In this document: piece after piece, positions 3,603-7,422 of the stretch
How positions within the stretch are numbered: the first letter of the stretch is position 1
Layout of the letters: every line of letters starts with the position of its first letter
Source: Candidatus Neomarinimicrobiota bacterium
Lineage (GTDB): Bacteria; Fidelibacterota; SORT01
Direction: 5' to 3'
NCBI GenBank assembly: GCA_022567655.1
Contig: JADFGO010000003.1
Span: 1 to 50,651 of the forward strand
DNA length: 50,651 bases
Position numbers and translations under genes: made by a program
Notes under the pieces: model-generated
The model's input: the letters and a program-made list of their open reading frames with translations, nothing else
Told to the model about the DNA's origin: nothing
Database searches by the model: none

Positions 3603-3628
3603 TTGACATGACGATTTATTAGTATAAA
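3603..3628 (+). promoter_or_regulatory. Possible promoter for the rho gene run
   Basis: TTGACA at 3603-3608 and TATAAA at 3623-3628 lie 240 nt before rho. The 14-nt spacer is short for a sigma-70-type promoter, so this is tentative. If used, it leaves a leader of about 230 nt; rho genes are often autoregulated through a long leader. I see no other feature in 3629-3867 apart from the AAGGAAAG ribosome binding site before the rho ATG. Confidence 0.3.
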
Positions 3629-3867
3629 TTAACACAGCTACAACGTTTTGTCCCCGAAAAATGCAGAACAAACTTCTTCACAAATATATAAATCATGGCA
3701 AAACGAAAGCGAAAACAGGAAATTAGAAAGATATTTTAGGGGTTATCTGCCGAAAGGTTTACCGAATTTCACGATTTAAGGTTAGAAGTCTGATTAAATA
3801 AATTAGATATTGCCTTTCAGCGGCACAATTCAACAAGCAATAAAATATTTCAAAAGGAAAGAATTTA

Positions 3868-5127
3868 ATGGAAACTGATATCAAAGAACTTCAATCGATG
3901 AAAATAGCCGAGCTTTCAAATCTTGCTGTCGAGCTCGAGCTGCCGGATGCATCGAATATGAAAAAACAGGAATTGATTTTCGGCATCCTTGAGGCAAGGG
4001 CGGATAAAGAGGGGCAAATACATTCCGAGGGTGTATTGGAGATACTGCCGGACGGGTACGGATTTCTTCGTTCGGTGGACTATAACTATCTGCCGGGACC
4101 GGATGACGTATATATTTCGCCGTCACAAATTAAGAGGTTCAGCCTGAGGACAGGGGATACGGTGGCGGGTCAGATAAGACCGCCTAAAGACAATGAACGG
4201 TTTTTTGCCTTATTGAAGGTCGAAAAGGTGAACGATCAAGACCCTGAAAAGGCAAAGGAAGTAGTCCGCTTCGACAATCTTACTCCACTCTATCCCGAAG
4301 AGATTATAGATCTCGAGGCGGAACCGAACGGTTATTCAATGAGGATAATGAATTTATTGACGCCCATCGGTAAGGGACAGCGCGGGCTTATAGTTGCACA
4401 ACCGAAAACGGGAAAGACGATGCTTCTTCAAAAACTGGCTAACAGCATTACGAGGAACCATCCGGAGATAAAACTTATGGTCTTGTTGATAGACGAGAGA
4501 CCCGAAGAGGTCACGGACATGGAACGGTCGGTTGATGCGGAAGTTATCTCGTCCACGTTCGATGAGCCGCCGGAAAGGCATGTCCAGGTGGCGGACATGG
4601 TACTCGAAAAAGCACGCAGGCTGGTCGAGTACGAGATGGACGTAGTCATCCTGTTAGACAGCCTGACACGCCTGGCACGGGCGCATAATACAGTTGTACC
4701 CCACAGTGGTAAAATACTCTCAGGCGGCGTTGATTCTAATGCACTGCACAGACCTAAGCGTTTCTTCGGCGCTGCGAGGAACGTCGAAGGAGGGGGAAGC
4801 CTGACGATACTTGCTACCGCGCTGATTGACACAGGAAGCAGGATGGATGACGTTATCTTCGAAGAATTCAAAGGGACGGGTAATATGGAACTTGTTCTCG
4901 ACAGGAGATTGAGTGACAGAAGGATATTCCCTTCGATTGAGTTGAACCGCTCCGGCACAAGAAAGGAAGAGCTGCTGCTTTCGAAAGATCAACTTAACAG
5001 ACTATGGATTCTGCGCAAATTCCTCAGCGATCTGAATCCGGTAGAGGGTATGGAATTTCTTTTAGAGAGAATGAGAAGAACCAAGAGTAATAAAGAATTC
5101 CTTGCATCTATGAGCGATTGGAAGTAG
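3868..5127 (+). CDS. rho: Transcription termination factor Rho
   Basis: A 419-residue hexameric RNA helicase that ends transcription. The N-terminal Rho-N helical domain (about 1-50, [15 protein letters not shown]) is followed by the RNA-binding cold-shock fold (55-130, with [18 protein letters not shown]). The ATPase core has Walker A PKTGKT at residues 179-184, Walker [17 protein letters not shown], the Q-loop region [20 protein letters not shown], and the arginine-finger segment [10 protein letters not shown]. The length equals the short form without an inserted N-terminal domain. An RBS (AAGGAAAG) precedes the ATG. It opens a long plus-strand gene run. Confidence 0.98.
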
Positions 5128-5216
5128 TATAGTGCAGGATACTCTTAGAAGGGCGTACTTTAATTAGTTTTTCAAGATTCTTATTTATATAACCAGGGCT
5201 TTTGCCGGAGCCTTCA

Positions 5217-5873
5217 ATGCGTTCTATTCGTGTATACAGAGTTCGAATAAAAATCAATCCTGACGGTAAGGTTTCAAGTCACCATTTCCGGGCGTATATG
5301 CTCAAGAAATTTCCGGACAGCAAGCTCGTTGAATATTCCGGTGGAGCCACAGACAAGATTAGGTCCACCCCTCTGATCCAGTATAAGATACTCGATTCCG
5401 ATCCATTTATCATCGCAGTCGAGGACGGTGTTGATGCTCTAAAGGAAGTGCTGCCGCAGCTCTCTGAACTCTATCTCGGGCATAACAAGTACGGGATCAT
5501 CGAAATAGAGAAAAACGAAACTGACTCCGAGATAGGAGTTACGACCAAACGTAAGAAGTACACGTTCGAAACTCCATGGTTAGCGCTCGGTGAGGAGGAC
5601 TACGGAAAATTTAAGTATTTGTACCAGCAGGAACGCGATGCCGCTCTCTCGAAAATGCTCATCAGGAATATACTCGGTCTTGCAAGAACTTTTAAGTGCG
5701 AGGTGGACATGCGGATCAAGGCGCGCCACGAACTGAAAGAGATCCCTCCATTCAAACTCGGCACCTCAATCTCGGGTTTCGTCGGAGGTTTTGAAACGAA
5801 CTTCAAAATCCCCGAACACCTTGGAATAGGCAACCTCTCAGACAGAGGCTTCGGAAGCATAATCCCAAAATAA
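5217..5873 (+). CDS. Solitary Cas6-like (Cas6b-type) RAMP protein
   Basis: A 218-residue protein with the framework of Cas6b-type CRISPR RNA endonucleases: TPLIQYKILDSDPFIIAVED near the N-terminus, FETPWLALGEEDYGKF in the middle, RNILGLARTF, and the C-terminal glycine-rich RNA-binding loop in GFVGGFETNFKIPEHLGIGN followed by SDRGFGSI. Those blocks are established Cas6 hallmarks. However, the N-terminal HNH-type histidine pair that usually precedes the LIQYK block is absent here (LVEYSGGATDKIRST), so catalysis is doubtful. No CRISPR array or other cas gene exists in the window; it sits between rho and an aminotransferase. The ATG at 5217 has GGAG six nt upstream and is preferred to a TTG at 5202. 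Confidence 0.72.
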   Translation: MRSIRVYRVRIKINPDGKVSSHHFRAYMLKKFPDSKLVEYSGGATDKIRSTPLIQYKILDSDPFIIAVEDGVDALKEVLPQLSELYLGHNKYGIIEIEKNETDSEIGVTTKRKKYTFETPWLALGEEDYGKFKYLYQQERDAALSKMLIRNILGLARTFKCEVDMRIKARHELKEIPPFKLGTSISGFVGGFETNFKIPEHLGIGNLSDRGFGSIIPK

Positions 5874-5945
5874 ATCCTGCTTTATTCTTCTTGCGGAGAG
5901 GCGGGTAGAGCCTTATATTTTCTGGCTGTGAAGGAATAAGTTGAA

Positions 5946-7136
5946 ATGGTCAGATTAGCGGACAGATTAAAAAATATCAAGCCATCCACCACCATGGTTG
6001 TAATGGCGCTGGCATCGGATATGAAATCAGAGGGTGTGGACCTCGTCGATTTAGGAGCAGGCGAACCTGATTTCCCTACACCTGAATATATCAAAGCCTT
6101 AGCGACGAAAGCTATGGCTGAGGGTTATACGAAATATACGAAGGTCGATGGAATACCCGAGCTTAAGGAAGCGATAGCGTTCAAACTCGAACGGGATAAC
6201 GATTTAAAATTCACTCACGACCAGATTGTTGTTACCAGCGGGGCGAAGCAGGCGATATATAACGCTATAATGGCGACGGTAAACAAAGGTGACGAAGTGA
6301 TCATACTGGTTCCCTACTGGGTCTCGTTCCCCGAGATAGTCAAGATGGCTGATGGTGTACCGGTGTTTGCCCAGCTCGATCCTGAATCTGAATTTCGACA
6401 CACGGAAAACCGGTTCGACAGTTATGTTACCGAGAGGACGACCGCAGTGATACTGAACTCCCCATCGAACCCGGCGGGTTCGATGTTGGATGATGAATTC
6501 ATACACGACGTGATCAAATCCGCAAAAGAAAACAACCTTCTTATAATATCAGATGAAACCTACGAGCGTATAACATATGAGAAGAAGTATAAAAGTGTAG
6601 CTGCATATGAGGAGGCATACGATCTGACGCTTACTGTGAACTCAATGTCAAAAAGCTACTCGATGACCGGGTGGCGTATCGGGTTCGGCGCAGGAGAGAA
6701 GGAATTGATTAAGGCAATGAGCAAGATTCAGTCGCAAAGCACGTCGAACGCGAATTCGATAGCTCAGAAGGCGTCGGTCGGAGCATTGATGGGAGATCAG
6801 CAAGACGTAGAGGGTATGAGAAAAGAGTACATGGAAAGAAGGGACGCGATATACGACGGTTTGAACCGGTTACCCGGAATTGAAGCCAACAAACCGGAGG
6901 GTTCATTTTTCATATTTCCCGACGTGAGCTCATACTATGGGAAGTCGGTAAACGGAAACGTAATAAACGATTCCACCGAGTTTTCCAAATTTTTGGTCGA
7001 GTATGCAAAAGTCGTTGTCATACCGGGAGAGGCATTCGGTTCGGATAATAACATCAGAATATCGTTTGCGACATCGATAGAAGAATTGGATAAAGGCGTT
7101 CAGCGTATTGGAGACGCTTTAAACTTATTGAATTAA
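5946..7136 (+). CDS. Aspartate aminotransferase-type PLP enzyme (class I fold)
   Basis: A 396-residue class I/II aminotransferase. LGAGEPDFPTPEYIKA binds the substrate carboxylate, the TSGAKQAIYNA segment anchors the cofactor phosphate, LNSPSNPAGSM holds the Asn contacting PLP, ISDETYERITYE carries the Asp and Tyr, and the PLP lysine is K236 in SMSKSYSMTGWRIGFG. The C-terminal Arg is in NNIRISFATS. The subfamily is the AspC/AspB-like Ib group that moves the amino group between aspartate or prephenate and 2-oxoglutarate; prephenate use cannot be excluded. An AAGGA site lies about ten nt before the ATG. It is 72 nt from the Cas6-like gene. Confidence 0.92.
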   Translation: MVRLADRLKNIKPSTTMVVMALASDMKSEGVDLVDLGAGEPDFPTPEYIKALATKAMAEGYTKYTKVDGIPELKEAIAFKLERDNDLKFTHDQIVVTSGAKQAIYNAIMATVNKGDEVIILVPYWVSFPEIVKMADGVPVFAQLDPESEFRHTENRFDSYVTERTTAVILNSPSNPAGSMLDDEFIHDVIKSAKENNLLIISDETYERITYEKKYKSVAAYEEAYDLTLTVNSMSKSYSMTGWRIGFGAGEKELIKAMSKIQSQSTSNANSIAQKASVGALMGDQQDVEGMRKEYMERRDAIYDGLNRLPGIEANKPEGSFFIFPDVSSYYGKSVNGNVINDSTEFSKFLVEYAKVVVIPGEAFGSDNNIRISFATSIEELDKGVQRIGDALNLLN

Positions 7137-7367: not shown

Positions 7368-7389
7368 ATACGTATTACAATAAAACAGG

Positions 7390-7422
7390 GCGTCTGAACA
7401 TCAGGTTCAGACGCTTCTTTTT
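7390..7422 (+). terminator. Intrinsic terminator after rpmE
   Basis: Perfect 10-bp stem GCGTCTGAAC (7390-7399) and GTTCAGACGC (7405-7414) with a 5-nt loop, followed by TTCTTTTT. It lies 22 nt after rpmE and ends only nine nt before the next ATG (7432), so it may work as an attenuator within the gene run. Confidence 0.85.

Follow-up and report, generated by a model that had tools for sequence, protein, structure and literature searches.

A Cas6b-like protein encoded beside rho in Fidelibacterota, with evidence for its domestication outside CRISPR

The gene described here occupies positions 5,217 to 5,873 of a 50,651-nt stretch of DNA from a Candidatus Neomarinimicrobiota bacterium (contig JADFGO010000003.1 of assembly GCA_022567655.1, positions 1-50,651; the whole stretch is called the window below), and it encodes a member of the Cas6b family of CRISPR RNA (crRNA) endoribonucleases from which the canonical catalytic residues are missing. 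It belongs to a single clade of Fidelibacterota proteins encoded at a fixed position, away from cas genes and directly downstream of the transcription termination gene rho, and this clade is under purifying selection. By sequence the protein is a Cas6b, and as a system it is a variant, a Cas6b domesticated outside CRISPR, a reading that is well supported by the data presented below. No description of the gene was found in the open-access literature, although subscription papers or preprints may hold one.

Cas6b membership and the former active site

The window protein matched the Pfam families Cas6b_C (1.4e-24) and Cas6b_N (3e-13), each above its curated cut-off, the Cas6 model of PADLOC (5.9e-49) and, among PDB sequences, the Cas6b of Methanococcus maripaludis (MmCas6b; 4z7k/4z7l, 1.4e-26), and both Cas6b domains (PF17955/PF17262) were matched by 25/25 rho-type members. 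NCBIfam gave no match for the window protein, a result that is uninformative because genuine Cas6b controls were missed as well. The AlphaFold2 model of the window protein (predicted local distance difference test, pLDDT, 93.3), whose underlying alignment included genuine Cas6b sequences, had 4z7k as its best PDB match (template modelling score, TM, 0.88), and the same entry was again the top match (1.5e-18) for a 353-aa relative modelled from rho-type sequences only. The double RNA recognition motif (RRM)/ferredoxin fold of Cas6 with its glycine-rich loop is present in the predicted models. The Cas6b-type framework that the initial annotation had read from the LIQYK and TPWLAL blocks and the glycine loop (GIGNLSDRGFG) is therefore upheld by profile, sequence and structural comparison alike. 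The gene and the residues discussed in this section are located as follows:

5217..5873, + strand: Cas6b-like gene of the rho-linked clade (218 aa; subfamily without a C-terminal tail)
5280..5285, + strand: H22-H23 at the start of helix 1 (helix 21-31), H23 being a candidate relocated catalytic residue
5331..5369, + strand: former active-site segment, residues 39-51 (EYSGGATDKIRST), placed by alignment; loop 44-48 is of low confidence in the model
5823..5855, + strand: glycine-rich loop GIGNLSDRGFG, residues 203-213; the Lys of GIGK in CRISPR-type Cas6b is replaced by Asn

Two histidines have been implicated in catalysis by MmCas6b (PMC3652601). Residues were compared in an alignment of 91 proteins, comprising 34 of the rho type and 57 other Cas6b, with the numbering of H38, H40 and Y47 of MmCas6b read off the alignment with the PDB match. 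The window counterparts of these three residues are E39, S41 and R49, with HNH aligned to EYS. Histidine fills the first and second His columns in 100% and 98% of the non-rho proteins, whereas it is not among the top residues of the rho clade (0%), in which mainly Pro, Asp or Glu and Leu, Ile or Ser are found, respectively. The column of Y47, which we take to be the tyrosine of the catalytic set, is 96% Tyr in other Cas6b, mostly Phe in the rho type and Arg in the window protein. Position 206, in the glycine-rich loop, is Lys in 100% of the 57 non-rho proteins and Asn in 97% of the rho clade. The HxH motif was absent from the N-terminal region at 56/56 rho-type loci, in agreement with the initial annotation that the usual histidines were missing, and the protein thus lacks the HxH...Y set of the Cas6b crRNA endoribonuclease. 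The structural core is invariant in rho-type and other Cas6b, with Y115, W121, N151, F192, N195, P199, G205, G211 and G213 common to MmCas6b and the rho type, and basic residues at positions 10, 25, 57, 140, 170 and 210 are retained in the rho clade and in the window protein. Elsewhere, an archaeal Cas6b-like protein on a long branch (L128; FHERGYRYPLIQYK), not encoded beside rho and in which HxH was not found, represents a separate possible active-site change.

The window protein is of a short form, and in most families the protein has about 290-365 aa with a low-confidence (disordered) C-terminal region that evolves faster than the Cas6 domain. The last residues of this tail, FNxxYHKKQH or a near match to it, are predicted to form a short helix and resemble a docking peptide. 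The exact motif was found once per genome, in the Cas6-like gene, in 13/30 genomes where the pattern matched, and no second protein with YHKKQH was found in the genomes searched for the exact peptide.

A rho-linked clade independent of CRISPR

A profile search of 245 Fidelibacterota genomes separated two score groups, a rho type scoring at least 194.6 bits and another type scoring at most 162.3 bits, the former being present in 126 genomes. Fifty-six rho-type loci were read (17, and 39 more picked to cover the most divergent members), and rho lay directly upstream on the same strand in 54 of them (17/17 and 37/39); the other two comprised one at a contig end and one without a usable upstream gene. 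Among named GTDB loci, the best 80 of 271 matches, a selection that leaves room for rare copies elsewhere, included 27 that were rho-adjacent, all without HxH, and 53 that were not, of which 52 had HxH and many adjoined CRISPR arrays. The rho type formed one clade with support 98/98 in a maximum-likelihood tree (strictly one side of a branch, as the tree is unrooted). Its named members are Candidatus Marinimicrobia/Neomarinimicrobiota, now Fidelibacterota (formerly also SAR406), and a few loosely labelled bins group inside this Fidelibacterota clade. No rho-linked copies were found in 82 KSB1 and 395 Bacteroidota genomes, where all matches were of the other type and did not exceed 170 bits; the ten best-scoring loci fetched from them all carried HxH and none had rho directly beside. 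The rho-linked clade is so far confined to Fidelibacterota. Two loci labelled Cloacimonadota (L078, L131) have a Cas6b nearly identical or close to those of Methanosarcina, likely through binning contamination or recent transfer, and one KSB1 locus (L165 of G314) has two Cas6b-like genes head to tail, both with HxH.

No CRISPR array or cas genes were found in association with the Cas6-like gene, and Cas1, RAMP (PF03787) and DevR/Cas7 (PF01905) were not detected in the window's 2.14-Mb, 96.6%-complete assembly, arrays in the rest of the genome not having been searched. PF01905 is a weak control that also missed Cas1-positive members of the phylum and is hence not used as evidence. Across the phylum, Cas1 was detected in 31/245 genomes, namely 12/126 with the rho type and 19/119 without it, so that 114/126 rho-type genomes lack Cas1; among the 53 rho-type genomes with a completeness of 90% or more and a contamination of 5% or less, 44 lack it. 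Two single-contig genomes (G003, G186) have the rho type and neither Cas1 nor RAMP. Three others (G006, G007, G180) encode a second, lower-scoring Cas6b on the contig that carries Cas1, the G180 copy having HxH, and therefore CRISPR, where present, has its own Cas6b. The initial annotation had described a solitary Cas6-like gene without CRISPR; the second half of this description agrees with the absence of Cas1 and RAMP, whereas the gene is not a single orphan but part of a phylum-wide clade. Its proposal of a conserved, domesticated CRISPR-derived protein is supported by the orthologues beside rho and by the selection acting on them, and neither a lack of Cas6 similarity nor a matching cas locus was encountered.

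The ratio of non-synonymous to synonymous substitution rates (dN/dS), obtained by simple Nei-Gojobori counts from closely related pairs whose dS was usable, though high in some of them, was 0.012-0.114 for the Cas6 domain, 0.005-0.118 for rho and 0.037-0.149 for the downstream aminotransferase gene (AAT). The clade is under strong purifying selection and is kept nearly as strictly as rho. Genomes without the Cas6-like gene often have rho adjoining AAT with little between. On a tree of rho, built without an outgroup and thus approximate as to timing, presence and absence of the gene require seven changes, six of them forced by well-supported branches. Taken together with the single protein clade, these changes are most simply explained by a single early gain and repeated later losses, a pattern which indicates that the gene is useful but dispensable.

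The neighbours of the gene in the window, all on the + strand, are the following:

3603..3630, + strand: promoter-like site TTGACA-16-TAAATT upstream of rho (consensus match only; the region has no more promoter-like sites than expected from shuffled sequence)
3868..5127, + strand: rho transcription termination factor (Rho_N, Rho_RNA_bind, ATPase), directly upstream, adjacency conserved
5946..7136, + strand: class I/II aminotransferase (AAT), directly downstream of the Cas6-like gene
7388..7416, + strand: strong terminator-like hairpin downstream of AAT, with a 12-bp stem followed by a T run

The Cas6-like open reading frame opens with ATG, preceded by a GGAG ribosome-binding site (5207-5210) six bases upstream, and it lies 89 bp from the end of rho on the same strand, so the placement immediately downstream of rho in the initial annotation is correct. 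In the 27 named loci, 22-92 bp separate rho from the Cas6-like gene, and across loci this distance is mostly within about 95 bp; the Cas6-like/AAT gap is -7 to 111 bp in the named loci, in many -7 to +25 bp, and the Cas6-like stop overlaps or nearly overlaps the AAT start codon in several relatives. No plus-strand terminator-like site was found between rho and the Cas6-like gene in the window, a weaker site (5-bp) lies at 5898-5914, and the predicted hairpin after AAT is consistent with a single rho/Cas6-like/AAT transcription unit. The only neighbour constant in all families with flanking sequence is rho, which is still upstream in family f4, where ubiA replaces AAT downstream. One bin (G119) holds two different rho/Cas6-like/AAT loci (L047, L048), which probably reflect a mixed bin rather than duplication, since its estimated contamination is 5%. 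An Rfam search of the window found no RNA family. The three genomes of f1, the family of the window, keep a block of approximately TTAGGnnnATnTGCCGAAAGgcTTAA in the rho leader (3628-3867 of the window, with corresponding leaders in L032 and L033); the block may fold into a small GNRA-type hairpin and, by eye, is missing from other families.

Possible roles beside Rho

The single-orphan, artefact and chance readings of the Cas6-like gene are rejected in view of the conserved clade and its synteny. The following course of events may be envisaged: an early member of Fidelibacterota would have gained a cas6b gene at the junction of rho and AAT; its product would have retained the Cas6 fold and a set of basic residues but lost both the GIGK lysine and the His/His/Tyr set with which crRNA is cleaved; and the gene would then have passed on vertically, still next to rho, without depending on a CRISPR system. 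Because the fold and basic residues are kept and the cleavage set is lost, we infer that the protein could bind cellular RNA without processing it, within the transcript metabolism served by Rho, for instance by binding the mRNA of the rho operon in a feedback loop, or as an accessory that marks or masks transcripts close to where Rho loads. The flexible tail ending in FNxxYHKKQH would, in most families, tether the protein to a partner. A role as an RNA-binding protein in Rho-dependent termination or in the control of rho mRNA is favoured, since the rho gene is the sole constant context, and is put forward at a confidence close to, if somewhat below, an even balance. The initial annotation had likewise offered a link to Rho or translation as an inference. 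The bolder proposal that a non-cleaving Cas6b serves Rho-dependent termination throughout the phylum as a dedicated cofactor or a feedback regulator, docked to the termination machinery by its C-terminal peptide, is more doubtful.

Several observations weigh against a role with Rho as outlined here. Conserved lysines of CRISPR-type Cas6b are altered at positions 157 and 206 and at one position near 180, and RNA binding may therefore differ or be weak. The gene is absent from f13, f21, f26, f29, most of f30 and part of f4, from which it follows that Rho works without the Cas6-like protein, and the linkage to rho could reflect shared expression only. Autoregulation is still a guess, since inspection by eye showed, apart from the three f1 genomes, no RNA element common to the rho leaders or to the spacers between rho and the Cas6-like gene. 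Moreover, H23 is kept in f1, f30 and f31, which could leave an atypical active site in these families.

If the rho operon provides co-expression only, the domesticated Cas6b could act on another housekeeping RNA (rRNA, tRNA or a small RNA) or in translation. The presence of prfA, prmC and dnaE further along the same gene run, a wider neighbourhood of information-processing and housekeeping genes, the replacement of AAT in f4 and the intact rho of genomes without the gene all fit such a role; however, rho alone is retained in all flanked families, even where the downstream genes have changed, and we consider this alternative rather unlikely. Less probable again is that the protein is still an RNase, with a rearranged active site that processes cellular RNA. 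Loss of the canonical histidines is not by itself proof that cleavage is lost, given that SsoCas6 of Sulfolobus is active without them and that the catalytic His of Cas6e and Cas6f lies in helix 1 (PMC3652601), where the window protein has H22/H23; the precedent of SsoCas6 and the conservation of H23 in three families are the reasons for keeping this explanation. However, most of the clade has Gln in place of H23, the Y47 position is mostly Phe, K206 has become Asn in 97% of members, and no single replacement catalytic residue is conserved clade-wide.

Two further readings carry the protein back to immunity. Its origin in a defence family and the differences in tail length and sequence between families would suit a stand-alone defence protein, such as a sensor of phage RNA, but the fixed site beside rho, the single clade and the rho-like dN/dS set it apart from defence genes, which are usually mobile and evolve fast, and make this reading very improbable. 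Scarcely credible is a Cas6 acting in trans on CRISPR arrays elsewhere in the genome: the protein is a Cas6b family member, and 12 rho-type genomes also have Cas1, but the remaining rho-type genomes lack Cas1, HxH is missing at every locus read, and G006, G007 and G180 have the separate Cas6b described above.

Comparison with known Cas6 proteins and significance

The rho-type proteins share with MmCas6b both domains over the whole length and the predicted fold. They differ from it in the catalytic set and in the change of GIGK to GIGN, and also in having neither an array nor cas partners, a fixed place beside rho and, in most families, a tail with a conserved C-terminal motif. The Cas6-related protein of Pyrococcus furiosus (PDB 3ufc), presumably a Cas6 relative without catalytic activity from an archaeon that has CRISPR, shows the Cas6 fold and was a structural match of the models; to our knowledge, it has no phylum-wide link to a housekeeping gene. 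A distant Cas6 fold is also shared with Csf5/type IV Cas6 (PDB 6h9h, 7xfz), which, however, is part of a CRISPR effector complex. SsoCas6 (Sso1437; PMC3652601) likewise lacks the canonical His, but it serves and cleaves CRISPR repeats, whereas the rho type has no CRISPR context. Known reuses of CRISPR parts, such as CRISPR-associated transposons and type IV systems, mostly keep several cas genes together (PMC8730458).

These findings imply that Cas6b profile matches alone are no evidence of CRISPR. The clade offers a natural experiment on the Cas6 fold after loss of the usual cleavage residues, and the protein is a candidate new factor in Rho termination. With a member of the phylum, Fidelibacter multiformis, in culture (PMC11652737), the Cas6-like gene may become testable. 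If the interpretation is true, a single Cas protein would have been turned into chromosomal housekeeping machinery in about half of the species sampled from a phylum that is commonly met in the dark ocean.
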